NCBI RefSeq assembly: GCF_003173335.1
Contig: NZ_QGMZ01000010.1
Location: 138,974-202,973 of the forward strand
Length of the DNA stretch: 64,000 nt
Source of the DNA: Methanospirillum stamsii
Lineage (GTDB): Archaea; Halobacteriota; Methanomicrobia; Methanomicrobiales; Methanospirillaceae
Direction: 5' to 3'
Position 1 is the stretch's first letter; every line of letters begins with the position of its first letter. Positions 47,883-63,698 of this stretch are shown in pieces. The position numbers and the translations under genes were made by a program. Under the pieces are notes generated by a model. It saw nothing but the letters and a program-made list of their open reading frames with translations, was not told where the DNA came from and ran no database searches.

Positions 47883-49367
47883 TCACGATGCCGGATTCAG
47901 GGGTTCAAAAAATAATGCCCTCATACCTCCGGATAACGGTACCTCTTTTATTCTGACCCTTTTTTCCGTCTTATCATGACACCGGATAGGAATTACTGGT
48001 GATTTAAATGATGTTTTACTTTCAGAATCCAGCGGAGTTGGATGAATTTTTTCCCGGCATCCCAGATCCGGAATAGTGCTTTGGAGCCATTCTCCGGGAT
48101 GAACACAGTCATCACTGGTAAATCCGAATTCTTTTGTGAAAACAGGATTTATTTTTATAATCCGGTTCGTATTATCAATGAGCATGGCCGGTGTCGGAAT
48201 CGCAGAGATAAACTCATCAACCTGTCTTATACTCCGTGAAAGTCGTTCTTCAGTCTGCCTTCTTGCGATGGCTATCGAAGCCTGGCGGAGAAATGATTCT
48301 ATTGCCTGTTTATTCTGAAGTGTTTCATCCTTTCCAAGTAATATTCCCACAATCCCATAGAGCCGGTCCTGCCATACAAGACCGGTGAGATAGACTTTTG
48401 CCAGGTTAAACCTCAAAACCATCGCATTACAGGCCTTCTCTGGAAACATATGAGCACAGAGGTCATAGAAAGAAATTTCTTCGTCCTCAAAAAAAGGCCT
48501 AAACCGCATTTCTCTCATTGCTCGTAAAGTCAGGGGGGTCTCATAGAAAGGAGCCGCAGAAAAAAATTCTACAATAGGACAGGGGAGACCTACGACATCA
48601 TAACCGAGGAGTGAACGTACACCATCACGAAGTTCCTTTCCCTGAACTGCTTTTAGAAAAATCTGCCCGGAAGCAAGGTCAAATGATTCCACAAAACACC
48701 GGGGGGTGCCGGGTAATAGTTCGACAACCTTTTCAGAGACATATTCATAAATATCAGCATCAGGAGGTAAATCAACAAGCTCCACTGCTGTTCTGGCCAG
48801 AAATTCCATGTTATTTACATGTTGTTTCTGTTCGGTGATGTCTTCCAGGACAATGGTCAGACCTTTGTTTTTTTCGTCAAACAACGTGGGAATTACTTCC
48901 ATCTTGTAGTAATACTCAATCCCCTCTCTGCAAAACCTTACATCAGTAATTATCTGTTCTCTCTCTGTTGAACGGATAATATCCATGGTTTTTGGAGTTG
49001 ACAGGATAGGAAGACCATTCCCGATAATATTTCTCCCGATCATTTCTTCCTTTGAAAGTCCGGAAAGGCTTATGTATTGATTGTTTACCTGGACAATATT
49101 CATGTCCATATCCACAATTACTATCATATTCTTGGTAAAACACAAAAATGCAGATAACGGAACCCGTTGTGAAAGCCAGTATATCCGGGCCGAACCTACC
49201 TGCCTTGTCTCAACCTTTCCCTCCGCTTTCAGAATGTCAAGATATTTAGCGGTAATAGTTCTGTTTTTATTGATTTTTTTAGAGATATCAGAAATGGTAA
49301 GTCCACGGGGACTGGACTTCAGAATTTTCTGGATAACACCGGATACTTCCTGATCCTCTCCCATCAT
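47883..49367 (-). CDS. HTH-PAS-GAF-PAS sensor regulator, copy 1
   Basis: A 494-residue soluble protein. The first 70 residues are a winged helix-turn-helix (LTISDISKKINKNRTITAKY; VETRQVGSARIYWLS). A PAS domain spans about 75-185, a GAF-like domain about 190-365 (QDRLYGIVGILLG; FLRQASIAIARRQTEERL), and a second PAS about 370-490. There is no kinase or receiver domain, so it is a one-component transcription regulator or a sensor binding a partner. It is a clear paralogue of the next gene: the HTH is nearly identical and the same residue blocks recur throughout. The 90-bp gap between them suggests separate promoters. Confidence 0.82.
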   Translation of the reverse strand: MMGEDQEVSGVIQKILKSSPRGLTISDISKKINKNRTITAKYLDILKAEGKVETRQVGSARIYWLSQRVPLSAFLCFTKNMIVIVDMDMNIVQVNNQYISLSGLSKEEMIGRNIIGNGLPILSTPKTMDIIRSTEREQIITDVRFCREGIEYYYKMEVIPTLFDEKNKGLTIVLEDITEQKQHVNNMEFLARTAVELVDLPPDADIYEYVSEKVVELLPGTPRCFVESFDLASGQIFLKAVQGKELRDGVRSLLGYDVVGLPCPIVEFFSAAPFYETPLTLRAMREMRFRPFFEDEEISFYDLCAHMFPEKACNAMVLRFNLAKVYLTGLVWQDRLYGIVGILLGKDETLQNKQAIESFLRQASIAIARRQTEERLSRSIRQVDEFISAIPTPAMLIDNTNRIIKINPVFTKEFGFTSDDCVHPGEWLQSTIPDLGCREKIHPTPLDSESKTSFKSPVIPIRCHDKTEKRVRIKEVPLSGGMRALFFEPLNPAS

Positions 49368-49457: not shown

Positions 49458-50936
49458 TCAGGGTTTCATAAAGAAAAGAAGCATCCCATCCGATACCAGG
49501 ACCGGCTGTATACATACTTCAGCCCTCACGTTGTTTTTACTGGTTAGAGAAATAAGAATAGACTCGCTTTTTATTGTGCTATCAGATGCGCTTTTCAAAG
49601 TTTCCAGTATCCTGTGTTGATCCTGAATACCCGGAAATGTTTGTTTAAGCCATATATCCCGGGTAGGGATATCAGTCAGTGAATATCCAAAATCATCTGT
49701 GTATTTTCGGTTTACATGGGTAATTCTCCCATGATTATCCATGGTTAAAACCGGGAGTTCTGCTTCGTTGATGAGATTGTGATAATCCTGTTCACTTTGG
49801 GATAATCGCTGTTCAGTCATACGTCTTGCAATTGCAATAGATGCCTGACGGAGGAATGATTCAATCACCTGCCAGCTCTCAAGGTCTTCATCCGGACCCA
49901 TGCAAATTCCAACAACACCAAAGATCTGTTCCTGCCAGACAAGTCCGGTAAGATAGGTCTTCCCGATATGATTCGTGACGAGAAATTTTTCACATACATC
50001 ACGGGGAAACAGATGAGCACAGATATCATAAAAGGAAAACTCCTCATCTTCAAAGAGAGGTCTGTGTTTTAATTCACGCATTGCTCTTATTGATAAGGGA
50101 CCTTCGAAATATGATTTCTCAGAGAAACATTCCTGTAAAGGAACAGCAAGTCCGACCAAATCCCTTCCTCCGGCAAGATATGCAGATGCTTTTCTGAACG
50201 CTTCTCCAAAAACTGCCCTTATTAGTAACTGACCGGTTACCTGATCTAATGAGATAACCCAGCACCGCTTACTTTTTTCCGGGAGAAGTTCACAGACACA
50301 TTCTGCAATATACTGGTATATATCGGCATCCGGATTAAGCTCAACCAGTTCCATTGCGGTTCGTGCCAAAAATTCCATGTTTTTCAGATGCTTTTTCTTT
50401 TCGGAAATATCTTCAAGGACAATGGTAAGCCCCTTCTCTCCGTCTTCAAAATGAGTGGGAATTACTTCAATTTTATAAACATATTCATAATTGTCTTTAA
50501 AATAGGATATCTCACTGATGACCTGTTCGTTTCCAGAAGAACTTATTATGCTGATTGCCTTTTGAGAAGAGATAAGAGGCAGACCATTCTCGAGAATACT
50601 TCTCCCGATTAATTCTTCTTTTGAAAATCCACTGATAGAAAGATATTGATTGTTCACCTGGACAATATTCAGATCCTTGTCTAATATCAGGATGATATTC
50701 CGGGTAAAACATAAAAATGCAGATAACGGAATTCGCTCTGAAAGCCAGTATACCCGGGCAGAGCCAACCTGTCTTGTATCAACCTTCCCTTCTGCCTTTA
50801 AGATATCCAGATGTTTCGCAGTAATATTTCTGTCCTTTTTTATTTTTTTCGAGATCTCTGTGATGGTGAGCCCTCTCGGGCTCAGTTTCAGGCTCTTTTG
50901 GATCAAATTATATAGTGCCTGATCCTCTCCCCCCAT
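49458..50936 (-). CDS. HTH-PAS-GAF-PAS sensor regulator, copy 2
   Basis: A 492-residue paralogue of the protein at 47883, with the same order: winged HTH (LTITEISKKIKKDRNITAKH; VDTRQVGSARVYWLSE), PAS, GAF-like domain (FYDICAHLFP; FLRQASIAIARRMTEQRL) and a C-terminal PAS. Divergence is greatest in the GAF ligand region and the last PAS, suggesting different signals with conserved DNA recognition. No ribosome site precedes the ATG, so it may be leaderless. It follows the kinase/phosphatase triad on the same strand; a functional link is not shown. Confidence 0.82.
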   Translation of the reverse strand: MGGEDQALYNLIQKSLKLSPRGLTITEISKKIKKDRNITAKHLDILKAEGKVDTRQVGSARVYWLSERIPLSAFLCFTRNIILILDKDLNIVQVNNQYLSISGFSKEELIGRSILENGLPLISSQKAISIISSSGNEQVISEISYFKDNYEYVYKIEVIPTHFEDGEKGLTIVLEDISEKKKHLKNMEFLARTAMELVELNPDADIYQYIAECVCELLPEKSKRCWVISLDQVTGQLLIRAVFGEAFRKASAYLAGGRDLVGLAVPLQECFSEKSYFEGPLSIRAMRELKHRPLFEDEEFSFYDICAHLFPRDVCEKFLVTNHIGKTYLTGLVWQEQIFGVVGICMGPDEDLESWQVIESFLRQASIAIARRMTEQRLSQSEQDYHNLINEAELPVLTMDNHGRITHVNRKYTDDFGYSLTDIPTRDIWLKQTFPGIQDQHRILETLKSASDSTIKSESILISLTSKNNVRAEVCIQPVLVSDGMLLFFMKP

Positions 50937-50992: not shown

Positions 50993-53900
50993 TCAAAAAA
51001 AGTCCTCGAAAAAATCGGATAATGTTTTTGATATCTTCTTACCTTTTTTAACGTTTTTGATTTTCATTGTCTTTATCCGGATTAAAGGAGATGGATCTAT
51101 AAAAACTCCCGGAAAGATCATGACCGATATCGTTTTTCGAATATACTGACGCCTTTTTGGTTTTCTTGGAACAAGTACCGGAAACAATTCCCCCTTCATA
51201 TACTCCATATCTCCAGTCCATTTCATCTCATCAAAGAGTGAATAGACCGGTTGAAAGGCAGCCGGAAGATGGGGAGAAAGGTATTTTTCCGGAAAAATTC
51301 CCTGACAGAGGGATTGATACGGGATGATTGTTGATTTTTTTAGCCATACACCCGGTGCATCATTATCCTGGCTTTGGGAATTGAGTAATCCGGGAGTTTT
51401 TCCGGAAATACGGAATGGAACAGTAAGAGAACAGGGAAGAAAGATAACCGGAATCAATGGGTGTTTTCTTTGAAAAGCTCTATGTTTTAAGGATCTTACA
51501 GGTGTTGTTGGATGAGACAGGAGGAGGACAGCCGGTGATGAGAGCTCATTAGGAACGATGCCGGAAGAAAGAAAAAAGCCAATATATCTTTCCGGCCTGC
51601 AAAAAGGGCAGTATCCAGGAATAATGGAGTACCAGTGATCCGGATTGACCGTGCAGGGAACAAGGGAAAATAATGTATTTTCAGCACGTAAAAACCACCG
51701 ATAGAGGGTTTTTCCAAGGGATTCACCCACCCTGTCTGCAGTGAAAATGCATCGGAATGGATATGGAATCACATCAAAAGAAGGTGAAAAGACACTTTTC
51801 CATGCATCATGTGAAGAATGATACCCGTCCATCATCATCGAAAAAAGCAGCGTTCTGACTTCATCAAGGAGAGAAGATTCCCTTTCACCATTAAAATCAC
51901 TCTCTTCCCGGGGGACTGCAATCACTTTGACCGAACTGTCAGGTCCGACAAATACCGAACGTGGAGAGAGACTAAATGGCATCAGAGAGGCCTCCACTAT
52001 TGTTTTAACCGTAAAAAGCAGATTCCGGCATGCAGCGACCCGGTGACGAAAAGAAAACTGATCTCCTTTCCAGGATTGCCGGCTCTCCGGGTCGGTAGCA
52101 ATATGCCAGTGAATATAAAAGGAAAAGTCAATTTCAGGAATAAGGTACCTGATGGCTTTTGCTATCTTTTGTTCCTGGTATACCATCATCTCCGGAAGGA
52201 TAACAGACGGAGGGAGAGATCGTTTATCTTTCGGACAGGACACCAGGGGTTTAAAACCGGAATGGCCGATAAGCAACTGAAACCCGGATCTATCTGTCCG
52301 TCTTATCTCTCCATGATGTATCCGGATAACGTGGGTTCCTACGGTAACCGGCCTTCCCATTTCATCAGAGTATTCCGGGATCTTTTGCTCCTGAACTGAT
52401 GAATGAATAAGAATCCTGGACTCCTGGGATTCATCAGAGAAACCAGAAGATACCCTGTCATTTCCATTGAGGAGGACATGTTTCCATCGCCTCGGTTCCG
52501 GTCTTGCCTGGGGGTGCTGATGGCCGGTTACAAAGGCCTCGTGAAAGAGAGTTCTGACCTTTTGAGGTATCCGGTCATACGGGGGGGCATATTCAGGAGG
52601 ATAAAGGCCAGGTATCTTTGCTTCATAGGAAAAAAGGCCACGGAGAATTTTATCTGTAGTTGTCGGTGCGTCTTCGATAAGCGGACCTCTTCCCTGGTAT
52701 GGATGAGCACCCTGCATTAAAAACCGGAAGATAAGCACTGCAAGGGCAAACCTGTCTGCAAACAGCCGGTCAATATCCTGTTTTTCAAATGAACCATTGA
52801 TGAGTTCAGGAGGTAGATACTCCCCGGTCCCGACTTTACAAAACCAGGTCCGGGAAGAAGAAGGATCGGTAATCTGAAATGAATCGGTATCAATCAGGCA
52901 TATCTCACCGGATGTGCTGATAAAGACATTGTTCTCACGAAGGTCGCCAATACAGTGACCAGCATTGTGTACAATCTCCACAAGTCCTGCAAGTCTTCCG
53001 GCTGCAAGAAGGCAGGCATTAAACTCCTGGTCCGGCTGGTCATACCAGGAATGAACCGGAGTGAATCGACTGTCAAGTCTTGTCATAATATACCCCACGA
53101 ACCTCGGGGAAGTTCCAGCAGACCTGACAATCCCGGCAGGCCAGCAGATTCCGGTTAACTGTGGTGTGTGAAGTGGATTTTTCTGCATGGCCTGGATCTT
53201 TTCTTCCATCTCCTGACTGCACCGGTGTGGATGAAAGACTTTCACACATCGTGATTCATCCCCGTCAATATACCAGATCTCTCCTTCTCCACCAGATTTT
53301 CCGGAAGATACAATCTGAAGAGCCATCCCGAGATTATCAATGACGGTCATCCTGGACCGGGCTCTTATCCGGGGGACGTGCATCCGGGGTTTTACCTGGG
53401 CCTGATATGTCCTTACAATCTCAAGGTTCAGGGTATACGGACCGGCATTTGTAATCACCATAACCGGTACTGATGCAGGAACAGTTCCGGGAAGAAGACG
53501 GGTATCCACCCGGATAGTGATGATAGAAAAATCCTCCACCGAAAAGATAGAGGGGACTGCAGTAATCCAGGGAAATTTCGAGGGTATTGTCCCCCGGAGA
53601 GTTCCGGTACCTACGTTCCGGATGATGAGACGCTCTTCAATTATTCCCTTGACCGACCAGGAGATCCGCAGCGATGACGGGGTTAACCGGGCAACAGGAC
53701 CTTTTGTGGGGGAACGGTGAATTGATACCTCAACAATCTCTTCTCCCCCGTTGGTCCTGACATGAATTCTCCCGACCGGGTGACGGGCCGGAGGAGCTTT
53801 TGCCGTTATAACTTTTACCGGAATCACCTGAACAACTCTGGCCCAGATCCCCCGTACCGGAATTTCAATCCAGTCACAAAGCGGGACTGCAGTTCCGGAT

Positions 53901-54328
53901 AAAAAACCAGGCCCTGAATTTCTTATTGTAAGGGAGAAGTCAATCGTCTCATCTTTTGTAATACTACAAAACTGGAAGACCTTTTCATCTATCCGGAGCG
54001 TTGATACGGGAACCAGAGAAGGTTGTATCACGACCTTTATCCGGGTAATCCCGCCGGTTGACAGAATATATACCCAGGTTATCGCATCAGAAGGGGCTTT
54101 ATCAGCTCTTATCTCAAGGGCTATTTTCTGGATGAATGTGGTATCAAGATTTGCATCAAGGACCGTAACCCAACTGGCATCAGAACGAACACTCCCATAC
54201 AGTCTGCCTTTTCCTTCATTCATGACCACCAGTTCTTCACGAACCGGGCCGGATGAAGAGGGAGAAACCTGTATTTCAGTACGGTCAACCCGGATTTTTG
54301 GGCCATTCCCGGTTGACCTGTGATTCAT
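50993..54328 (-). CDS. Ser/Thr kinase-like protein with three N-terminal Ig-like repeats (TerY-P-type triad)
   Basis: An 1111-residue protein without signal peptide or membrane helix. Residues 8-315 hold three Ig/BACON-like repeats, each with N-x-G-x-G-x-L-x-G and a following W-(V/I) (NEGKGRLYGSV, NSGPGFLSGTA, NVGTGTLRGTI). A kinase domain follows at about 335-600: Lys in CVKVFH, catalytic loop IGDLRENNVFI near 464, and LIDTDSFQI in place of DFG. DTDSF is typical of the kinases found with VWA and PP2C partners. The C-terminal 450 residues are unassigned and contain CPFC near 907 and a Lys-rich end. Its ATG overlaps the PP2C stop by one base. Probable target pathway unknown. Confidence 0.8.
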   Translation of the reverse strand: MNHRSTGNGPKIRVDRTEIQVSPSSSGPVREELVVMNEGKGRLYGSVRSDASWVTVLDANLDTTFIQKIALEIRADKAPSDAITWVYILSTGGITRIKVVIQPSLVPVSTLRIDEKVFQFCSITKDETIDFSLTIRNSGPGFLSGTAVPLCDWIEIPVRGIWARVVQVIPVKVITAKAPPARHPVGRIHVRTNGGEEIVEVSIHRSPTKGPVARLTPSSLRISWSVKGIIEERLIIRNVGTGTLRGTIPSKFPWITAVPSIFSVEDFSIITIRVDTRLLPGTVPASVPVMVITNAGPYTLNLEIVRTYQAQVKPRMHVPRIRARSRMTVIDNLGMALQIVSSGKSGGEGEIWYIDGDESRCVKVFHPHRCSQEMEEKIQAMQKNPLHTPQLTGICWPAGIVRSAGTSPRFVGYIMTRLDSRFTPVHSWYDQPDQEFNACLLAAGRLAGLVEIVHNAGHCIGDLRENNVFISTSGEICLIDTDSFQITDPSSSRTWFCKVGTGEYLPPELINGSFEKQDIDRLFADRFALAVLIFRFLMQGAHPYQGRGPLIEDAPTTTDKILRGLFSYEAKIPGLYPPEYAPPYDRIPQKVRTLFHEAFVTGHQHPQARPEPRRWKHVLLNGNDRVSSGFSDESQESRILIHSSVQEQKIPEYSDEMGRPVTVGTHVIRIHHGEIRRTDRSGFQLLIGHSGFKPLVSCPKDKRSLPPSVILPEMMVYQEQKIAKAIRYLIPEIDFSFYIHWHIATDPESRQSWKGDQFSFRHRVAACRNLLFTVKTIVEASLMPFSLSPRSVFVGPDSSVKVIAVPREESDFNGERESSLLDEVRTLLFSMMMDGYHSSHDAWKSVFSPSFDVIPYPFRCIFTADRVGESLGKTLYRWFLRAENTLFSLVPCTVNPDHWYSIIPGYCPFCRPERYIGFFLSSGIVPNELSSPAVLLLSHPTTPVRSLKHRAFQRKHPLIPVIFLPCSLTVPFRISGKTPGLLNSQSQDNDAPGVWLKKSTIIPYQSLCQGIFPEKYLSPHLPAAFQPVYSLFDEMKWTGDMEYMKGELFPVLVPRKPKRRQYIRKTISVMIFPGVFIDPSPLIRIKTMKIKNVKKGKKISKTLSDFFEDFF

Positions 54329-55110
54329 CAGACTGGCTCACCCGGACTGCTAAAACCTGCAGCAAGGGTCATATCATCCGAAGACAGAGCACGCATCCGG
54401 TCAGAAAAGAGGAGGTCGCAAATCTCTGCATTACAGTCCCGGCCTTCAATATAATACTCCCGGAGTGCTTTTACCAGGGGAATGATGAATGGTTTGTATG
54501 GCTGTAATCCACCTTCTTCCCTTCTTATAAGTGCCCCCTGGCATCCGTCGGTGGCAAGAAGTACGGCATCTGCCTTTCCAGAAGATATCCGGAGATGTTT
54601 TTCCCAGGTCCTGGCAGTCAGAACTGCAGTTTCATTGGCATATTCAGCATTACCAGGAGCTGAAAGCACCGACACATCATCGCCAAAAACGCAGGCACAG
54701 ACACCATCACCGATATGACCGCACCAGACACAATCCCCCTTCATCACAACCAGTGCAAGAGTTGTTGCATAGGATGAAAGCGGATGTCCGTTTGTTTCTG
54801 CTAAAGCGGTGAGACAAGACCGCCCACTGGCGATACCATCCCGGATAATATCAGATACAGGGATTTCTCCATCATCATCCGCCATTTTTATGAGTCTGGC
54901 AACCTCCCTGACACAGGCGGTTACTGCAGCCTCCGCTCCTTTGCCCCCATAATCAGCCGAAGAAAGACCATCTGCCACCGCCAGAACCAGGCATCCGGGA
55001 AGATTTTCAAAAGCCCAGGCATCTTCGCAGGGAATACTTCCCTGGATATGGCGGGTTCCCTGAACTGAACCTCCACAGGCAAAATAATCCGGACCAGTCA
55101 TGGTTTTCAT
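54328..55110 (-). CDS. PP2C-family protein phosphatase (TerY-P-type triad)
   Basis: A 260-residue soluble phosphatase. Metal-binding motifs of the PP2C fold are visible: CEDAWAFENLP and VLAVADGLSSADYGGKGAEA near the N-terminus, then WCGHIGDGVCACVFG, VLLATDGCQGALI and DDMTLAAGF at the end. It would reverse phosphorylation by the adjacent kinase. The gene follows the VWA gene by 6 bp and overlaps the kinase ATG by one base. Order VWA, phosphatase, kinase is that of the TerY-P triad described for stress-response and metal-linked loci. No terD-type gene is present in the window. Confidence 0.88.
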   Translation of the reverse strand: MKTMTGPDYFACGGSVQGTRHIQGSIPCEDAWAFENLPGCLVLAVADGLSSADYGGKGAEAAVTACVREVARLIKMADDDGEIPVSDIIRDGIASGRSCLTALAETNGHPLSSYATTLALVVMKGDCVWCGHIGDGVCACVFGDDVSVLSAPGNAEYANETAVLTARTWEKHLRISSGKADAVLLATDGCQGALIRREEGGLQPYKPFIIPLVKALREYYIEGRDCNAEICDLLFSDRMRALSSDDMTLAAGFSSPGEPV

Positions 55111-55116
55111 AATACC

Positions 55117-55818
55117 TTAGAGCTGAATAACACCCCAGCCTTCAGGCCCGACCGGGTTTTCCAGAGAGATCTGTTCACCAATCCTGGAGTCTGATATCTG
55201 GGACAGACTTTTGGAGAGCCATAGGAACATCTCAGCCCACTTTGCTTCTTTGAGCATCAGAGGGGTTCGTGAAGGCGGAGAGATCTCACTAAGCAGGGAT
55301 ATGTTAGCCTGGTCAACTCCCAGTGCCCAGAACAGGAATTTATGGCTCTCCTCACCCCCATGCACGGCATCAATTACTTCCTGCCATCTTGCATCACCTT
55401 TGCGCATATCGGTTGGCTGTCCGTCGGTGATCAGGAAGATCCACGGCCGGTAATAATCAGTACCGATCCTTTTGTACTCTTCTTTTCTATCATCAATGAC
55501 CCTGACCGCTTCCAGAATTGCTTCACCCATCGGAGTATATCCACCTGCGACAAGTTCGGGGGGTTCAAACGCTGATATCCCGGTAAAAGGTCTGACCAGT
55601 TCAACCCCTTTTCCAAATGTGATAACCGCAAGATCAATTCGTTTCACGGCAAGATCATCCTGCTGCAGTTCATCAGTCAGAATGCGAAGCCCCTCGTTCA
55701 GTTCAGCGATTTTATTACCTGACATCGATGCCGATGTATCCAGGACAAGGACCGTTGCACAGTGAGGGTGCTGCGGATAAGGAATGTCAACGACGTCTTC
55801 GAGTTTTTCAGGACCCAT
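55117..55818 (-). CDS. VWA-domain protein, TerY-like
   Basis: A 233-residue von Willebrand A domain. The metal site motif is VLDTSASMSGNKI (D-x-S-x-S), with Thr in GGYTPMG and Asp in FLITDGQPTD. Length and sequence resemble TerY. A short tail follows the domain. It is the first gene of the triad; a TATA-like TTTTATAA lies about 25 bases before its ATG with no ribosome site, suggesting a leaderless message. VWA proteins of this type probably scaffold kinase and phosphatase action in a metal-dependent way; that role is family knowledge, not seen here. Confidence 0.9.
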   Translation of the reverse strand: MGPEKLEDVVDIPYPQHPHCATVLVLDTSASMSGNKIAELNEGLRILTDELQQDDLAVKRIDLAVITFGKGVELVRPFTGISAFEPPELVAGGYTPMGEAILEAVRVIDDRKEEYKRIGTDYYRPWIFLITDGQPTDMRKGDARWQEVIDAVHGGEESHKFLFWALGVDQANISLLSEISPPSRTPLMLKEAKWAEMFLWLSKSLSQISDSRIGEQISLENPVGPEGWGVIQL

Positions 55819-55840
55819 TGATTGAAAATTGACTGGTAAA

Positions 55841-55848
55841 TTATAAAA
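55841..55848 (-). promoter_or_regulatory. TATA-like box for the VWA/PP2C/kinase operon
   Basis: On the minus strand TTTTATAA lies 23-30 bases upstream of the VWA start codon, the spacing expected for a leaderless archaeal message. Confidence 0.45.
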
Positions 55849-55902: not shown

Positions 55903-56355
55903 ATGCATCTGCTCCTTGGCATTGGAAATGACCTGCTTGGTGATGACGGGGTAGGCCCATATATCGCAGACCACTTCAGGAGCAGTAACTGGATAACCAT
56001 CAATGCAGGAATTGTTCCGGAAAATTTCACAAGTCCGGTCAGGAAACAGAGCCCAGACAGCATTGTCATCGTTGATGCAGTGGAAATGGGACTAAAACCC
56101 GGAAGCATTCGTATCATCCCTCCGGAGTCAATCAAAGACTGTGGCACCGGGACGCATCAGATAGCTCTGAACTTTATTACCGACCAGTTTTTATCCTTCT
56201 GTCCGGAGGTGATTTTTATCGGAATACAACCGGGTTCACTCGATCCTGATTCTCCTCTCACAGATCCGGTCAGAAAAGCTGCGGAGTGCCTCTTGTCTGT
56301 ATTACCGGACCAGAGGTTTGATACAATAAAAGAACTTCAAAGTGATAAAAGATAG
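55903..56355 (+). CDS. Hydrogenase maturation protease (HycI type)
   Basis: A 150-residue endopeptidase that trims the C-terminus of the large subunit of NiFe hydrogenases after nickel insertion. GIGNDLLGDDGVG at residues 6-18 supplies the first acidic ligand, IVDAVEMG gives Asp58, and GTHQ gives His85; together these bind nickel in the family. The domain begins at residue 1, so the start is secure. In methanogens the target may be an F420-reducing, Ech- or Eha-type hydrogenase; none is encoded here. It is divergent from the VWA gene and followed by the coiled-coil protein 58 bp on. Confidence 0.88.
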   Translation: MHLLLGIGNDLLGDDGVGPYIADHFRSSNWITINAGIVPENFTSPVRKQSPDSIVIVDAVEMGLKPGSIRIIPPESIKDCGTGTHQIALNFITDQFLSFCPEVIFIGIQPGSLDPDSPLTDPVRKAAECLLSVLPDQRFDTIKELQSDKR

Positions 56356-56413: not shown

Positions 56414-56845
56414 ATGCAATATGAGAATGTCGATAGTGCAGAGATGGCTGAAATTGCATTGTCACAGGCAGTTGATGACCATATTGAAAAAAGCCAGGAG
56501 GTCATTGACCGGATATCTGAACTTGAAGGACTCATTCTTCACTGGAACCAGGAAGATGTCAGGGAACTGAAGAAATATATCCAGGAGATGCGGGTTCTTC
56601 TCTTAAATCACTTTAAAGTTCAGATAGATAATTTCATCAATATGCGAAAAATTCCGGGAATACATGTGCCGGAAGAAATAAAGCAGATGTACAAGGTTAT
56701 ATCCGTAGACAAGAAAGGAGTTGCGCTGTATGGCGTCGAGATGGATAAAATCGCGTACTATTCTAAAATTACAGACCATTATCAGAAGAAGAAAGAAGAA
56801 ATGGTAAAAGCTGCTCAGGCGGCAAAAGACAAACTCAGGAAATAA
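56414..56845 (+). CDS. Coiled-coil protein of unknown function
   Basis: A 143-residue soluble protein, almost entirely helical. Residues 25-75 and 108-143 look like coiled coils (IEKSQEVIDRISELEGLILH; YQKKKEEMVKAAQAAKDKL). A short central stretch, YKVISVDKKGVALYGVEMDK, may form a beta hairpin. No catalytic motif, Cys pair or membrane helix. AAGTGA precedes the ATG and TTATACTATAA lies about 30 bases upstream, so it probably has its own promoter. I do not recognise the family. Position beside a hydrogenase protease is the only hint and is weak. Confidence 0.7.
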   Translation: MQYENVDSAEMAEIALSQAVDDHIEKSQEVIDRISELEGLILHWNQEDVRELKKYIQEMRVLLLNHFKVQIDNFINMRKIPGIHVPEEIKQMYKVISVDKKGVALYGVEMDKIAYYSKITDHYQKKKEEMVKAAQAAKDKLRK

Positions 56846-56866: not shown

Positions 56867-59116
56867 CTATTCTTCAAGAGCACGAAGGAGAGCAACACAT
56901 CCTTTTTTATCAAGCGGTTGATTGTCATTACCACATTTTGGCGAATAAATACAGGCCGGACACCCGTCTTTGCACCGGCATTCCATCACCATGGATCTTG
57001 CATTTCTGCAAAGTTCTTCATAAATATCATATGCCCGCTCAGATAGCCCTATCCCTCCTTCATACCCGTCATAAATAAAGATAACCGGTTTTCCATCGGC
57101 TTCCGGGGAACATATCGTTGAAAGACCACCTAAATCCCACCGGTCACATAGGACATGGTACGGCATCATCGCTATCAGGGCATGCTCAGCCCCATGGAGA
57201 GATCCTTCAATATCCCGGTCAGCCGAAACTGATTGTATTCCTGCATACGAAAATTCGATCCAGACAGAAACCGTTTCAAACGTAATCGGAGGTAATGAAA
57301 GAGACTCGGTTGAGATAGTTTTCTCATCAACCATTCTTCTGTATCCATGATACCATTCCGAGACATTGACCCGGCCTAAAACGAGGGTTCCCGCCTGAAT
57401 GGTCCGGCTCTTTATCCTCTCAAGAACCGTAATCCCGGTCTGATGATTCACCTTTGTATAATAACCGGGATCCTCCTGCCTGGCTATTATACGATGGTTT
57501 TCATGATCCCAGGAACTGACCATGTACCGTTCTCCCTGATGAAGAAGAACAGCACCCGGATGTGCCTCCCTACATGCCTGCCTCATATCCAGTGTCTCGA
57601 TAATCCGGGAACGAACCGCTACAGTCCAGACCTCACTTATCTGTGATAATGACACAAGTTCGCTGGCTCTTCTTCTCCCGGTATAAACAAAACCCCGGGC
57701 AGTAGGGGCTATGAGATTATTATCCTTAAGTGCCTCCAGTTGACCGGATATTCCAATGCCAAACCATCGGGTGTCTATTTCAGGTCTTACCGGTAGTTCT
57801 GCAGATGCACAAAGGAGCTGACCTGAGAGGATATAGGGATTTTTGATGTCAATTATAGCATGTTCATGAGGACGGGAGAAGAATTCCTCCGGATGCCTCA
57901 TGAAAAACTGGTCAAGGGGGTTTTGCATCGCAATAAGAATTGCCATGGCATCTGAAACAGACCGTCCCGCCCTTCCGGCCTGCTGCCAGACTGACATCAT
58001 GGTCCCCGGATACCCGGTCATGATAACCGCATCAAGTGAACCGATATCAATACCAAGTTCCAGAGCATTGGTTGAGACCAGGCCCCGCATCTTCCCTTCT
58101 TTCAGCTTCTTCTCAAGTTCCTGCCGCTCAATTGGAAGGTATCCGGCCCGGTAGGCAGCAATGCTTTTTGCTTTTTCAGGGGAACGTCTCATCAGGCTGT
58201 TTTTTGCCCACAGGGAGACAAGTTCAGTCATTCTCCGTGATCCGGTAAAACACAGGGATTGAAGCCCCGAATCCACCAGTACCGAGAGAATCTCTGCACT
58301 TTCTGAGTACACCGACCTCGGTAGGGACATCTCCCGGTACGGATTATAGAGAATGAAATACCGATCACCGGTCGGGGCGCCACTCCGCTCAATAACAGCC
58401 ATATCTCTTCCGGTAAGGCGAGATGCAAATTCTGCAGGGTTGGCGAGGGTTGCTGACGAGAGAAAAAACCTGGGTGATGAACCGTAATGCTCACATATTC
58501 TGAGCAGACGACGGATGAGCAGTGACATACTGCTTCCGAATACCCCCCGGTACTGGTGTGCCTCGTCCAGGATGATGTACCTGAGCCGGGAAAAAAAAGA
58601 AGACCACTGCCGGTGCCAGGGAAGAATCTGGTGCAGTTCATAGGGATTCGTGAGAACGAAACCGGCCTGTGCCCTGATGAGTGGCCGGTCATGCTGGGGT
58701 GTGTCTCCGTCGTAAATCGCCGGATCCAGATGTATTCCGGTCTTTTGTTCAAGTTCCCGGATAGTTTTTAACTGGTCGCGGGTCAGTGCCTTTGCCGGAT
58801 AAATCGCAAGAGCGGTTGCGTCCCGCTCATCTTCTCGGACACTAAGAAAAGGCAGGATAAATGCAAGCGTCTTTCCGGATGCGGTAGGGGTACAGAGGAT
58901 GACGTCATCTCCTGCTGTAATGGCATCAATGGCTGCCCCCTGGTGTGAATATAATGTGATATTTTCACGTAAGAGCCATTCTTTAACTCTTGCCGGAAGT
59001 ACATCAGGAACCGGACAGAAATCCGGCGGATGTGCAGGTATTTTTTGGATGTGCGATATGTACCCGGAAAACCTTGGATTTTCAAGGAGATGATCAAGTA
59101 AACCGGAGACGCTCAT
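56867..59116 (-). CDS. DEAD/DEAH helicase with DUF1998 (MrfA/YprA-like)
   Basis: A 749-residue superfamily 2 helicase. Motif I is TPTASGKTLAFILPF, motif II LDEAHQYRGV, motif III SSATLANP and motif VI QQAGRAGRS. The C-terminal DUF1998 region ends with CRCKDGCPACIYSPKCG, a four-Cys metal site. This is the MrfA (YprA) architecture; MrfA works with the exonuclease MrfB in mitomycin-damage repair in Bacillus subtilis. Its start overlaps the end of the exonuclease gene by 23 bp, so the pair is made together. Repair function here is by analogy. Confidence 0.9.
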   Translation of the reverse strand: MSVSGLLDHLLENPRFSGYISHIQKIPAHPPDFCPVPDVLPARVKEWLLRENITLYSHQGAAIDAITAGDDVILCTPTASGKTLAFILPFLSVREDERDATALAIYPAKALTRDQLKTIRELEQKTGIHLDPAIYDGDTPQHDRPLIRAQAGFVLTNPYELHQILPWHRQWSSFFSRLRYIILDEAHQYRGVFGSSMSLLIRRLLRICEHYGSSPRFFLSSATLANPAEFASRLTGRDMAVIERSGAPTGDRYFILYNPYREMSLPRSVYSESAEILSVLVDSGLQSLCFTGSRRMTELVSLWAKNSLMRRSPEKAKSIAAYRAGYLPIERQELEKKLKEGKMRGLVSTNALELGIDIGSLDAVIMTGYPGTMMSVWQQAGRAGRSVSDAMAILIAMQNPLDQFFMRHPEEFFSRPHEHAIIDIKNPYILSGQLLCASAELPVRPEIDTRWFGIGISGQLEALKDNNLIAPTARGFVYTGRRRASELVSLSQISEVWTVAVRSRIIETLDMRQACREAHPGAVLLHQGERYMVSSWDHENHRIIARQEDPGYYTKVNHQTGITVLERIKSRTIQAGTLVLGRVNVSEWYHGYRRMVDEKTISTESLSLPPITFETVSVWIEFSYAGIQSVSADRDIEGSLHGAEHALIAMMPYHVLCDRWDLGGLSTICSPEADGKPVIFIYDGYEGGIGLSERAYDIYEELCRNARSMVMECRCKDGCPACIYSPKCGNDNQPLDKKGCVALLRALEE

Positions 59117-60179
59117 ACCATTCCACTCCTAGGCGGGAGAGAAGATATGCAAGGCTTACTACATCCTGCCGGTTATGTTCAACAATTGGTACAACCGGAC
59201 CTGGATTGCCCGTTTCCATGTATCTGCAGTACCATTCCGGTACAAGGGCACCGGGAAGGTCTTCACTTCTGGATATCTGTAGATATTTTTTTTCAAGAGT
59301 AGAGAGGCGGCAATCAGAAATTTCGCGTTTCCAAAGCCTCCGGGATGGATGCAGCAGATCAAAATGGGGAACCTGAGGCAAAGAAGGCAGACCATAATAT
59401 GCCAGCCGATCCGCGATATAGGGTATATCGAAAGATTTTCCGTTAAAGGTAACAAGAACCGCATCATCCGGAATTAATTCGAGAAATGCAATCAGAGCAG
59501 AGACTTCCTCTCCGATATCACGAAGAAGAAACTGTCTGACCTGAAAAGTTCCATCTTCAAAGTATCCAAGTCCTATGAGGATGAGTGGCCTTCCAAAGAT
59601 GCCCAGTGTTTCAATGTCAACAAACCGGAATTTGCTCAAAGGGAAGAGGCAGGAACAGAGCAGGCTGAAGGGATGTGCAGCACCTTTTCTTGCTGATAAC
59701 AGCCGGAAGATCTCCACAGAATCTCCGGAAAGGGCCTCAATGATACAGGACGCTGCTGACCTGTACCTTCGCATGTATGCAAGGTTATCTATCGTCCGGC
59801 ACCCTCTCGACTTAAGCTGTGCCGATACTGCAGGCCCTATTCCTCTGACAAGGGTAAGTTCATGCTTTAAAAGGGATTTGAAACCGGAAATATCTACAGA
59901 TATACTCGGGGCGTCCTGGCTGGAATCAATGACATAATATTCGCCTTCAGAGTTCGTTAAGGCGGTTCCGGAAAAGCAATCTTCGAGGGAGAAACCATCA
60001 TAATCCTGGCACAATCGTGTGAGAAGGCGGTGCTGGGAATGAAATACTGACTCCTGCACCGGATACTGACTAATGCCCTGCCTGAAGACATTGTCATGGA
60101 GAACCACGGAATATTCGGGGGAGGCACTAATCCGTTCCTGCCACCTCCTTCCAATCCCTGCCAGGTCTGCTCCGGACAT
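59094..60179 (-). CDS. RNase H-fold exonuclease (MrfB/YprB-like)
   Basis: About 361 residues. The C-terminal half is a DEDD-type 3'-5' exonuclease: FVDIETLGIFG (D, E), LVTFNGKSFDIPYIADRL (D) and EHNRQDVVSLAYLL (final D). A helix-hairpin-helix-like segment, LVRGIGPAVSAQLKSRGCRT, lies near residues 115-135. This matches MrfB/YprB. The ATG at 60179 is preferred; the frame continues to a TTG at 60200 and a GTG at 60197. The gene precedes and overlaps the helicase. Bacterial mrfAB have the reverse gene order, so this is an independent arrangement. Confidence 0.85.
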   Translation of the reverse strand: MSGADLAGIGRRWQERISASPEYSVVLHDNVFRQGISQYPVQESVFHSQHRLLTRLCQDYDGFSLEDCFSGTALTNSEGEYYVIDSSQDAPSISVDISGFKSLLKHELTLVRGIGPAVSAQLKSRGCRTIDNLAYMRRYRSAASCIIEALSGDSVEIFRLLSARKGAAHPFSLLCSCLFPLSKFRFVDIETLGIFGRPLILIGLGYFEDGTFQVRQFLLRDIGEEVSALIAFLELIPDDAVLVTFNGKSFDIPYIADRLAYYGLPSLPQVPHFDLLHPSRRLWKREISDCRLSTLEKKYLQISRSEDLPGALVPEWYCRYMETGNPGPVVPIVEHNRQDVVSLAYLLSRLGVEWYERLRFT

Positions 60180-60253
60180 AATTACCAGAAAGTTCACCAA
60201 AGAAGAATATAAAGTGAGATACCCGCGGGGTGAAAGTAAACAGGAAGAAATGA

Positions 60254-60886
60254 TTATTTTTTTACCTGTTTATTACAGGGTATTTGAAGATTTATCCCTT
60301 TTACTGCATCATTACCTTCCTGGTATGCATCAGAAAGAGCAGTTGGATGACCGGTTATTCCCTTGTATCCATCCATGTTGCCGGCCAGAATATCAGTGCA
60401 ATGAGAAAACCCTAAGATATTAAAAAGAGCATTAAGCATCGGAAACGTGGTATCAAACACATCTTCCTGGTCCATCCCGGCAGTAGAGAGAAAGTATCCA
60501 CGCCGGAGTTTTTTCTGGTCAGGAGTTATGATGTGTGAATCAAGCAGAAAATGCCGGACCCACAGGTAATGGGCACGGTCAATAAACGACTTGAGTTCGG
60601 TAGTAATACCCATGGTATAAATCGGAGAACTAATAGCAATACAATCTGCGGATATTAACCGGTCATAGAGTTTTTTTGCATCATCATCCATAATGCAGAT
60701 TCCATTCAGATGACAGGCATTACAACCCTTACAGGAAGAATAGGTAAGACCGGAGAGGATTATCTTTTCCGCTTCGCCTCCTGCATCAGCGGCTCCCTGC
60801 AAAAAACTGTCTAATAATTGTTCGGTATTGCCTTTTCGTCTGGGACTTCCACACACACCAATAACAGTTACTTTTCCAGGGTTCAT
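60254..60886 (-). CDS. Iron-sulfur flavoprotein (flavodoxin-like NAD(P)H oxidoreductase), copy A
   Basis: About 210 residues. The N-terminus GVCGSPRRKGNTEQLL is the FMN phosphate loop of the flavodoxin fold. The compact cluster motif CKGCNACHLNGIC (C-x2-C-x2-C-x5-C, near residues 51-63) marks an iron-sulfur flavoprotein binding one 4Fe-4S cluster. SPIYTMGITTELKSFIDR is the second flavin contact. Such proteins in methanogens pass electrons to reduce oxygen or peroxide. The ATG at 60886 overlaps the previous stop by 4 bp. Last gene of the redox operon. Paralogous to the upstream gene. Confidence 0.88.
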   Translation of the reverse strand: MNPGKVTVIGVCGSPRRKGNTEQLLDSFLQGAADAGGEAEKIILSGLTYSSCKGCNACHLNGICIMDDDAKKLYDRLISADCIAISSPIYTMGITTELKSFIDRAHYLWVRHFLLDSHIITPDQKKLRRGYFLSTAGMDQEDVFDTTFPMLNALFNILGFSHCTDILAGNMDGYKGITGHPTALSDAYQEGNDAVKGINLQIPCNKQVKK

Positions 60887-61500
60887 GAACAAAGCCGCTC
60901 CTTCATCGTCTGCACCAGCCTTTGTGAGAGTGCAATTGCATCATCTTTTGCCGTTGGATGATTTAACACCGCCCCTTTTTCATCAACATTTCTGACCATC
61001 AGGTACGACAGGTCACGATTTTTCACCTCGATGACATGAAAAAAGCATTTCACTACCGGAACAGCCGCATCAAAAACATAATCCCAGTCCTGCCCTGCTG
61101 TGGAGATAAACAGACCAAACCGTTTACCTACCCGTTCCAAAGGAACCACCGGTAATTTCAGGACATATTTTCTGGACCTGAATACCTGGGCTCGGTCAAC
61201 AAGTGCTTTTGCCTGGGCACAGATACTCATACAGTAAATCGGAGCTGCAAGGATGATTAAGTCCGCTTCAATTATCTGCTCTGAAAGCGTGTCCATACCA
61301 TCATGATTGATACAATAATTGAGTTTTTCACAGGCATTACACCCTCTGCATGGCTGAATATCTGCATCATTTAAAATGACTTTCTGGACGGTGATGCATG
61401 AGTCCGTCTCCAGTTCTTCAATCACAAAATCAAGGAGTGTTTCAGAATTTCCATGTCTTCGGGGACTACCTGCTATCGCCAGAACTCGGATATTATTCAT
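60883..61500 (-). CDS. Iron-sulfur flavoprotein (flavodoxin-like), copy B
   Basis: A 205-residue paralogue of copy A. The FMN loop is AGSPRRHGNSETLL. The cluster motif CRGCNACEKLNYC uses Cys51, 54, 57 and 63. APIYCMSICAQAKALVDR forms the second flavin contact. It lies nine bases after the peroxiredoxin gene and overlaps copy A, so the operon delivers both flavoproteins with the peroxiredoxin. They may supply electrons to it; in some archaea iron-sulfur flavoproteins do act in oxygen and peroxide reduction, but the pairing here is inference. Confidence 0.88.
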   Translation of the reverse strand: MNNIRVLAIAGSPRRHGNSETLLDFVIEELETDSCITVQKVILNDADIQPCRGCNACEKLNYCINHDGMDTLSEQIIEADLIILAAPIYCMSICAQAKALVDRAQVFRSRKYVLKLPVVPLERVGKRFGLFISTAGQDWDYVFDAAVPVVKCFFHVIEVKNRDLSYLMVRNVDEKGAVLNHPTAKDDAIALSQRLVQTMKERLCS

Positions 61501-61509
61501 ACAAAAAAG

Positions 61510-62169
61510 TTAGAGTTTTTTAAAGCAGAGATACCAGTCTTTACACTCATATCCCTCTGAAAGACGAACTTTTGCAGCCTCAGTGGTCAGAGGTGCAGGC
61601 ACAACGACATTATCTCCGGGCTGCCAGTTTGCCGGTGTAGCAACACCTGCTTTATCGGTTGTCTGCAGGGCTTTAATCAGGCGGATGACTTCAGGAATAT
61701 ACCGTCCGTTACTGAGTGGGTAATAGATCATTGCCCGCAATATCCCTTTATCATCGATGAAAAATACTGCACGGACAGCGGCAGTCGAACTTTGTCCGGG
61801 ATGGATCATACCGTACATTGATGCAACGTTCATGTCCAGGTCTGCAATAATTGGGAACGGGATCTCAACACCCATCTTCTCTTTGACGTTCATCACCCAT
61901 GCAAGATGGGAATGAACACTGTCAATAGAGAGTCCGATCAACTGGGTGTTTAGTGCCTTGAATTCATCATGAGCTTTAGTAAATGCAATAAACTCAGTTG
62001 TACAGACCGGAGTAAAGTCAGCAGGATGTGAAAAGAGCACCACCCATTTCCCCTTCAGGTCTGATAGTTTCATCTTGCCATGGGTTGTTACTGCTTCAAA
62101 ATCCGGTGCAGGCTCTCCCAGAATTGGAAAACCTACGCAATCGCACTCATCATCATCATCGTAGTTCAT
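61510..62169 (-). CDS. Peroxiredoxin (Prx6-like archaeal type)
   Basis: A 219-residue thiol peroxidase. The peroxidatic Cys56 lies in [13 protein letters not shown]. Two further Cys near the end (209 and 215, in [13 protein letters not shown]) match archaeal peroxiredoxins that form a resolving disulfide. The long Prx6-type C-terminal extension is present. An extra CDC pair at residues 9-11, after a run of Asp, is unusual and could bind metal. It would reduce hydrogen peroxide and organic peroxides. Its ATG overlaps the AhpD-like stop by 4 bp. Confidence 0.92.
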
Positions 62170-62513
62170 GGTACCACAAAAATCTCCTCTTCGATCACTT
62201 TTCCGTTTACATAGGCAGGCATTCCGGCCAGAAGATACGCAACACGCAGTGCTTCTTCGACTTCTTCTTTGGTTACGCCAAGGTTTTTTGCACCTGCCAT
62301 CTGTGCTTTGATTGCATGCTGATCACGCATCGATGTAGCAATCGCAATAGCAATGAGTTTTTTAGTTTTTCGGGACAGGGCTCCGTCATCCCAGATATAC
62401 TGATCAAGCTTGAGAATCATCTCGTGCATGTCAGGATCAGTTTCAGCCAGTTTTTTAAAGATCTTGGGAACTTTCCCTATCTTTTTTTCAAGATCATCCA
62501 TTCCGGAAGTCAT
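62166..62513 (-). CDS. Carboxymuconolactone decarboxylase/AhpD-family protein lacking the CxxC motif
   Basis: About 115 residues from ATG 62513, chosen because GGGTGAT precedes it by about eight bases; longer starts exist. The fold is shown by [20 protein letters not shown] and [20 protein letters not shown]. AhpD proteins recycle peroxiredoxin through a C-x2-C pair followed by His. Here the matching segment is [10 protein letters not shown], with neither Cys. It therefore cannot act by the usual disulfide chemistry. Overlap with the peroxiredoxin gene still suggests a role in the same pathway. Confidence 0.8.
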
Positions 62514-62520
62514 ACACGAA

Positions 62521-62646
62521 TCACCCCTGCAGAACCATCGGTTCACCACAGCAGATAAGTTCTCCGCCTCCGACTTCCAGGACTTTTACCACATTACCAC
62601 AGATTTCACACTCGAAAACCTGTCCTTCATCAGACACATTGACCAT
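62521..62646 (-). CDS. Desulforedoxin-like 41-residue protein
   Basis: A complete 41-codon gene from ATG 62646, with GGAGG eight bases upstream. It reads [20 protein letters not shown], then ICCGEPMVL. The four Cys (C-x2-C near 13-16 and C-C at 32-33) match the iron site of desulforedoxin and of the N-terminal domain of desulfoferrodoxin (superoxide reductase). The catalytic superoxide reductase domain is absent. It lies seven bases before the AhpD-like gene and in the same operon. It may be a small electron carrier, for example to the peroxiredoxin or a superoxide reductase elsewhere. Confidence 0.85.
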
Positions 62647-63098: not shown

Positions 63099-63698
63099 AT
63101 GAAACCGCAGATTGTTGCGCTTCTCGGAAGCCCGCTCCCCGAAGGAAATACGGCTAAATTACTGAAAAAGGCTATTGAAGGGGCAGAAGAAGCAGGATGC
63201 GGTATTACTCTCATTGATGTCCCTTCACTTGAATTTTCTTCCTGCAGGGAGATGTATTATTGCCGTGAACAAAAGTCCTGCATCATGGAAGATGATATGG
63301 GGAGAATGTACCCGCTTTTAAAATCCATGGACAGCCTGATTATTGCAACTCCGGTGATGACGATGGGAGTCCCGGGCCATCTTAAATCATTCATGGATCG
63401 CTGTCAGGTATTTTATTGCGCAAAATATGAACGAAAGGACTCTCTCATCCCAAAAGAGAAGAGGAAGTTACGAAAAACGCTCCTTCTCTCGATATCCGGA
63501 ATGAATCTGCCGAATAATTTTGATGGAATCACCATAACCACCCAGGCATTTTGTGATATTATTGACTGTCAGCTTTCAGATGAACTGTTAATCCGGGATA
63601 TGGATAATAAGGTTGACCTTGACCGGTATCCTGACCTGATGCAGGAAGCATTTGATAAGGGTTTTAATCTCGGAAAAAGACTCACAAATTCGGGATGA
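63099..63698 (+). CDS. Flavodoxin-like NAD(P)H oxidoreductase with incomplete cluster motif
   Basis: A 199-residue flavoprotein of the same fold as those at 60254 and 60883: LLGSPLPEGNTAKLL for FMN and TPVMTMGVPGHLKSFMDR for the second contact. The cluster region reads CREMYYCREQKSC, with Cys49, 55 and 61, but Met52 in place of the second Cys. A standard 4Fe-4S cluster with four Cys is therefore not supported at this site. A TATA-like GGTATAAC lies about 20 bases before the ATG. Divergent from the redox operon and probably expressed alone. Confidence 0.85.
   Translation: MKPQIVALLGSPLPEGNTAKLLKKAIEGAEEAGCGITLIDVPSLEFSSCREMYYCREQKSCIMEDDMGRMYPLLKSMDSLIIATPVMTMGVPGHLKSFMDRCQVFYCAKYERKDSLIPKEKRKLRKTLLLSISGMNLPNNFDGITITTQAFCDIIDCQLSDELLIRDMDNKVDLDRYPDLMQEAFDKGFNLGKRLTNSG

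Follow-up and report, generated by a model that had tools for sequence, protein, structure and literature searches.

A predicted tandem kinase-pseudokinase protein within a VWA-PP2C-kinase operon of the archaeon Methanospirillum stamsii

The locus and its three genes

The window analysed here is a stretch of 64,000 nucleotides from the methane-producing archaeon Methanospirillum stamsii (contig NZ_QGMZ01000010.1 of assembly GCF_003173335.1, positions 138,974 to 202,973), in which three genes on the minus strand encode a VWA protein, a PP2C phosphatase and a protein kinase of unusual build. The kinase protein carries three immunoglobulin (Ig)-like repeats, a kinase domain with intact catalytic residues (K1), a second kinase-like domain that is almost certainly a pseudokinase (K2), a putative zinc hook and a C-terminal tail (Table 1). 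A gap of six bases separates the VWA gene from the PP2C gene, and a single base, 54328, is common to the stop codon of the phosphatase gene and the start codon of the kinase gene (a TGATG overlap), a spacing which suggests that the three genes form one operon. This is as the first-pass annotation of the window had proposed, and its three open reading frames (ORFs) all lie within the span 50993-55848 that it gave, although the upper end of that span falls 30 bases past the VWA start codon at 55818.

The Pfam matches of the triad are to PP2C_2 (6.9e-43), VWA (6.9e-08) and Pkinase (4e-06, below the gathering score). The metal-ion-dependent adhesion site (MIDAS) motifs of the VWA protein (DTSAS, GYTPMG and ITDG) and the metal motifs of the phosphatase (ADG, HIGDG and SDDMT) are intact, and K1 of the window holds all of the expected residues, namely GGEGEI, Lys363, Asp462, Asn467 and Asp480.

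Table 1. Genes of the triad and predicted parts of the kinase protein, with window coordinates
Feature	Residues	Position	Strand	Remarks
VWA protein gene		55117..55818	-	233 aa, YegL-like; Pfam VWA/VWA_2, identity to YegL, intact MIDAS
PP2C phosphatase gene		54328..55110	-	260 aa, PphC-like; Pfam PP2C_2 6.9e-43, identity to PphC
Kinase protein gene		50993..54328	-	1111 aa; three Ig-like repeats, K1, predicted pseudokinase K2, zinc hook, tail
Ig-like repeat 1	10-106	54011..54301	-	Repeat statistics; BACON_2 below cut-off; all-beta model
Ig-like repeat 2	110-208	53705..54001	-	Repeat statistics, profile survey, structure model
Ig-like repeat 3	211-312	53393..53698	-	Repeat statistics, profile survey, structure model
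Kinase domain K1	326-622	52463..53353	-	Catalytic residues retained; not followed directly by a zinc hook
Predicted pseudokinase K2	~655-890	51659..52366	-	Profile match, fold, residues and selection; equivalents of HRD-Asp, Asn and DFG-Asp lost
CHCC zinc hook	892-910 (C..H..CPFC)	51599..51655	-	Motif conserved in A1/A3; zinc binding inferred
C-terminal tail	916-1111	50996..51583	-	pLDDT <50; conserved DE[MF]xW...[LM][ED]..[KR]G near 1033

Two kinase domains and a zinc hook in one chain

With K1 as the query, a second match at residues ~825-899 was returned from the related loci L026-L028 and L010, and in L029, which belongs to another genus of the family, a whole second kinase domain was matched at residues 718-1000 (E 6e-32). 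A nine-row Methanospirillum K2 profile was compared by hhalign with 47 kinase domains not belonging to the tandem group, giving a probability of 99.4% (E 1.4e-21), against at most 0.6% for ten column-shuffled K2 controls. Modelled alone from seven K2-only rows, K2 reached a predicted local distance difference test score (pLDDT) of 78 and a predicted template modelling score (pTM) of 0.81. All of the 50 matches listed by Foldseek for this model were protein kinases (best E 5.5e-05), as were the 50 listed by VIA, with Z scores of 13.9-15.1 (the best at Z 15.1, with a root mean square deviation of 3.6 over 220 aligned residues). No Pfam family was matched by K2 of the window, and one weak zinc-finger match was returned among the seven K2 rows.

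The catalytic residues tell the two domains apart. The Lys, Asp, Asn and DFG-Asp of K1 are kept in all 11 chains compared; in K2 of the same number, the catalytic Asp of the HRD motif is replaced throughout (by Ser in seven, and by Val, Asn, Tyr and Phe once each). The Asn position of K2 is Ser (seven) or Thr (four) in 11 of 11, having been located by a pattern that itself requires one of the two, and the DFG-Asp is replaced in the segments displayed. K2 is in frame and intact in all 11 complete or near-complete ORFs. Its ratio of nonsynonymous to synonymous substitution rates (dN/dS) is 0.20, 0.20 and 0.23 in three pairs, beside 0.04, 0.03 and 0.10 for K1 and 0.19-0.26 for the tail, all of them rough figures because synonymous sites are partly saturated. 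The triad and K2 are conserved under purifying selection, and the fold match, the loss of catalytic residues and a dN/dS of about 0.2, taken together, argue strongly that K2 is a maintained pseudokinase. Some 450 residues at the C-terminus had been described in the first-pass annotation as an unknown part and a possible new effector region; profile comparison and structure searches assign them instead to the pseudokinase and the zinc hook, followed by the tail, and the effector proposal was rejected.

The hook is placed differently in the tandem proteins and in their single-kinase relatives. A motif of the form C-x(3-7)-H-...-CP[WF]C lies directly behind the sole kinase domain in many relatives, bacteria included (L048, L049 and L054), and a looser pattern locates a C...H...CPWC hook at residue 309 of YegI of E. 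coli. The pattern of the main survey was strict, so that loci scored without a hook may hold variants, as L030, L034 and L101 do by eye. In the tandem proteins the hook stands behind K2, 270 residues beyond K1, and its four ligands are invariant in the seven K2 rows aligned. A profile of K2 plus hook matched single kinases from other genera with E values as low as 1e-41, and the window's own K1 at only 2.7e-07. In two related triad kinases the hook is followed by long HEAT-repeat regions (L030:457-4845 and L033:4871-8557), which constitute another accessory form.

The tail is probably disordered, judging from the structure model. A tail profile built from Methanospirillum alone matches the protein of G017, the genome of the other genus, with an E of 5e-4, the best stretch being the DEFHW segment (domain E 0.0021), which gives a hint of common ancestry. 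When the tail motif was scanned for, a strict pattern missed several members and a looser one found seven relatives in addition to the window.

Ig-like repeats, distribution and neighbourhood

The three N-terminal Ig/BACON-like repeats named in the first-pass annotation were borne out by repeat statistics, by an all-beta model and by Pfam matches in related Ig regions. The pairwise scores among them are 61, 80 and 62, with a shuffled maximum of 53, and exceed the shuffles by 6.4-10.6 standard deviations (500 shuffles per pair). Pfam families were matched in the 16 Ig regions scanned as follows: DUF5717_N in 13, BACON_2 in 11, Cep192_D6 in six and HYDIN in three. Residues 11-310 were modelled with a pLDDT mostly of 72-92, nearly all beta, with a beta sandwich for each repeat, and the 15 best Foldseek matches of this part are proteins of the axonemal central apparatus, where HYDIN/ASH domains reside. 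A PDB search with the Ig profile returned no significant match; for the full-length model VIA listed only kinases, a result with no bearing on the Ig part. The repeats are Ig-like domains of the BACON/ASH-HYDIN kind, alike in fold and sequence to BACON and ASH (ASPM-SPD-2-HYDIN) domains, although the window region by itself matches only BACON_2 and at 18.0 of 25 bits falls below the Pfam curated cut-off. As inspection by eye shows no evident signal peptide in the kinase protein and a simple hydropathy scan detected no transmembrane-like segment in it, the repeats are taken as cytosolic docking domains.

The profile survey of Ig repeats covered 64 chosen loci and the window. The window has three N-terminal repeats, as do G017 (L029) and those Methanospirillum loci in which the N-terminus is present; L030, L031 and L032 have a single N-terminal one. 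In family f2 the repeats are C-terminal and occur in 19 of the 20 loci (L034-L037 and L085-L100, not L091), weakly in L085, L086 and L090. None were detected in L033, L038, L048, L049 or L054, nor in the L101-L124 group of kinases. The first-pass annotation had allowed that the Ig part might be a domain common to all such kinases; it is instead N-terminal, C-terminal or undetected according to the group.

Of the 61 genomes covered in the search for relatives, one being that of the window itself, 27 returned a match to the kinase, and every one of the 12 Methanospirillum genomes (G000-G011) did so. K1 and K2 share one frame in ten of these 12, the genes of G006 and G011 being cut by contig ends, and the same tandem layout recurs in G017. 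More widely, the A2 profile matched in 65 of 199 genomes of the class, and the window VWA query in 18 of 196 genomes of the phylum, only eight of these at E <1e-40 and the others being generic VWA matches. The order VWA-PP2C-kinase is kept in those Methanospirillum loci that have all three genes, and also beyond the genus. One Methanospirillum genome (G004) holds a second, more YegI-like triad (L038), and further triads belong to genus g5 (L101-L108); transmembrane-like segments are present in the kinases scanned from these (L038, L101 and L104).

Neighbours were clustered for 43 chosen loci and the window, with ORFs of at least 100 aa and with families listed if found in at least three genera, and only the VWA, PP2C and kinase genes link Methanospirillum with other genera. 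Within the genus the triad is accompanied by an MrfA-like helicase, by ORF143 and, in most, by HycI. Among those neighbours conserved in at least three genera that were scanned, neither a nuclease nor any other effector gene was recognised, and neither clustering nor Pfam recognised a metal gene conserved beside the triad. A 166-aa gene adjoins the kinase in g23, g25 and g31 and belongs to no Pfam family, going by the one member scanned. The absence of ter genes remarked upon in the first-pass annotation holds for the surroundings of the window triad, where none was recognised; TerD has no match in the host genome, the one genome searched for it, and a TerC-family gene is present on a different contig from the triad.

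Next to the VWA gene and divergent from it is a gene for a HycI-type hydrogenase maturation protease (55903-56355, plus strand), a neighbour also at L029 in the other genus. It is followed by ORF143 (56414-56845, plus), which is conserved beside the triad in the genus and whose 143-aa product matches no Pfam family above the cut-off. The MrfA-like helicase gene (56867-59116, minus; DEAD, Helicase_C and MrfA Zn-binding domain) overlaps an RNase_H_2 exonuclease gene (59094-60200, minus), a pair which we take to resemble the archaeal MrfAB DNA-repair pair. An apparent oxygen-stress cluster, picked out by eye from the ORF list (60254-62549, minus; 63099-63698, plus), comprises a peroxiredoxin, an AhpD-like protein and several proteins of flavodoxin/NADPH-FMN-reductase-like type. 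Directly downstream of the kinase gene lie two tandem paralogous HTH-PAS genes (47883-49367 and 49458-50936, minus); apart from the window, L021 is the sole Methanospirillum locus in which a similar pair was found behind the kinase, and these genes are therefore not counted as part of the module.

Relation to known systems and a proposed switch

On sequence comparison, the nearest characterised triad among those tested is YegL-PphC(YegK)-YegI of E. coli K-12 and not TerY itself. The window VWA protein shares 46% identity with YegL (E 1.5e-53), the phosphatase 28% with PphC (E 7.8e-18) and the kinase 28% with YegI (E 2.7e-27), and the homologous genes have the order and strand seen in the window, except that pphC and yegI are separated by yegJ, which is on the opposite strand. 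In YegI a single kinase domain is directly followed by the hook, whereas the window protein places three Ig repeats and a tandem pseudokinase before its hook; no Ig family was found in YegI by Pfam at E<=0.01. In PMC13232886, YegI is described as membrane-bound, unlike the window kinase with its lack of a transmembrane-like segment, and PphC is reported to dephosphorylate YegI; earlier work is said to have failed to define an expression condition.

The TerY-P triad, as set out in PMC11090510, comprises a VWA protein, a PP2C phosphatase and a kinase with a C-terminal zinc ribbon; a link to restriction systems is described for it, and TerY-P-like modules with an OB-fold are regarded as stand-alone defence. 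The window agrees with it in the three-gene composition, and its kinase protein carries a putative zinc-binding motif towards the C-terminus, although this CHCC motif is located behind K2. PADLOC returned no match at E<=1 for the window VWA protein, its TerY model included, or for the phosphatase, and that model (PDLC02224) matched YegL itself only at E 0.032; in addition, there is no TerD in the genome, and no associated restriction or ter genes were recognised. The triad may thus be called TerY-P-like, as in the first-pass annotation, in the wide sense of its homology to YegL, PphC and YegI and its gene order, and not in the narrow one.

The Ser/Thr kinase ArnC of Sulfolobus has a VWA protein, ArnB, among its substrates (PMC6509490), which makes phosphorylation of the window VWA partner plausible. 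The Arn network (ArnA/ArnB/ArnC/ArnD) is comparable to the window in having an archaeal VWA protein as the substrate of a Ser/Thr kinase, but differs in its FHA partner and in that the phosphatase named is PP2A and not PP2C. An active kinase and a pseudokinase are joined in a single chain, as in the window, in the JH1-JH2 arrangement of JAK and, reportedly, in the plant tandem kinase-pseudokinase protein Yr15/WTK1; only the kinase fold is known in common with these, however, and the window protein belongs to a prokaryotic VWA/PP2C operon and bears a zinc hook. The accessible parts of the open-licence PubMed Central literature yielded no account of a triad of this sort with a tandem kinase-pseudokinase, and the window architecture is not described in those of PMC4978471, PMC13232886, PMC11090510, PMC2877116, PMC12599244, PMC1262709 and PMC6509490.

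The reading preferred here, at a probability of roughly 0.6, is that the module is a cytosolic, regulated and reversible Ser/Thr phospho-switch of the YegL-PphC-YegI kind. Homology, gene order, intact active-site residues in the VWA protein, PP2C and K1, the pseudokinase K2 and the Ig-like repeats are its observed parts, from which a flow of signal may be inferred. K1 would autophosphorylate and would phosphorylate the VWA protein and/or another target, maybe a partner held by the VWA protein, and PP2C would reverse this phosphorylation and so reset the switch. K2 with its hook may act in cis on K1, as an allosteric sensor or a brake, and the Ig repeats may be docking arms for a cytosolic partner, by which the target is recruited. 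Confidence in any given input signal is low.

The position of the hook behind K2, together with a K2-hook profile that is closer to single kinases than to the window K1, points to a division of labour after duplication. A kinase domain would have been duplicated in tandem and its two copies would have divided the ancestral work, K1 keeping catalysis with no hook behind it and K2 losing catalysis while retaining the hook and the fold of a kinase. Duplication would, on this view, have separated catalysis from regulation. A more far-reaching and only tentative proposal is that a tandem kinase-pseudokinase arose in a prokaryote by duplication within a VWA/PP2C/kinase operon, with catalysis falling to one copy and the zinc hook to the other: K1 would catalyse, K2 and the hook would sense and also gate K1 in cis in a JAK-like manner, and three cytosolic ASH-like arms would dock the complex, with the hook-bearing K2 in the ancestral position and K1 as the added or remodelled active copy.

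Several points weigh on the other side. The full-length kinase model has a pTM of 0.38, so that the interface between K1 and K2 cannot be read from it; the dN/dS values are rough, as stated; the hook is recognised as a sequence motif only; and the tail is variable among relatives. In the tree of K1 and K2 domains, furthermore, the K2 branches are very long and K2 of G017 groups apart from that of Methanospirillum, and since branches of this length are too long to place, neither a single origin of the tandem nor the greater age of either copy is claimed.

Among the alternatives, the least improbable is a metal or redox sensor made up of the hook and the VWA MIDAS, with K2 a mere spacer that holds the hook. 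The invariance of the four ligands would agree with it, as would the hypothesis that TerY-P is a metal-sensing phosphorylation switch (PMC11090510), but a C-H-C-C hook is equally likely to be structural as sensory and the neighbourhood offers no recognised metal gene, and the explanation is considered unlikely. It is distinctly less probable that K2 and the tail are decaying, functionless remnants of a duplicated kinase: K2 does evolve faster than K1, its activation segment is shortened in the window group and L025 has no tail, yet the unbroken frame in all 11 ORFs, the dN/dS of about 0.2 in three pairs, the confident fold and the invariant hook motif speak for its maintenance. Just as improbable is an anti-phage or abortive-infection switch modelled on restriction-tied TerY-P or the stand-alone OB-fold modules, the first-pass annotation having suggested that the triad could be a stress or defence switch, for although those links to defence are described and PADLOC gives weak PD-T4-6 matches to K1, its run on the three window proteins and eight comparison proteins yielded for the window only such generic kinase matches, which YegI gives too, no nuclease or effector was recognised among the scanned conserved neighbours, and the single chromosomal neighbourhood conserved across the genus argues against a mobile defence island.

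Bacterial VWA/PP2C/kinase triads are known, but the mutual control of their parts is not worked out in the accessible portions of the literature examined, even for YegI. In M. stamsii the kinase and the hook have come to sit in separate domains of a single protein, and simple deletion could therefore probe the regulatory role of the half that bears the hook. The Methanomicrobiales provide a natural series of such proteins, from the single kinase through kinases with C-terminal Ig repeats or with HEAT repeats to the tandem form with N-terminal Ig repeats.

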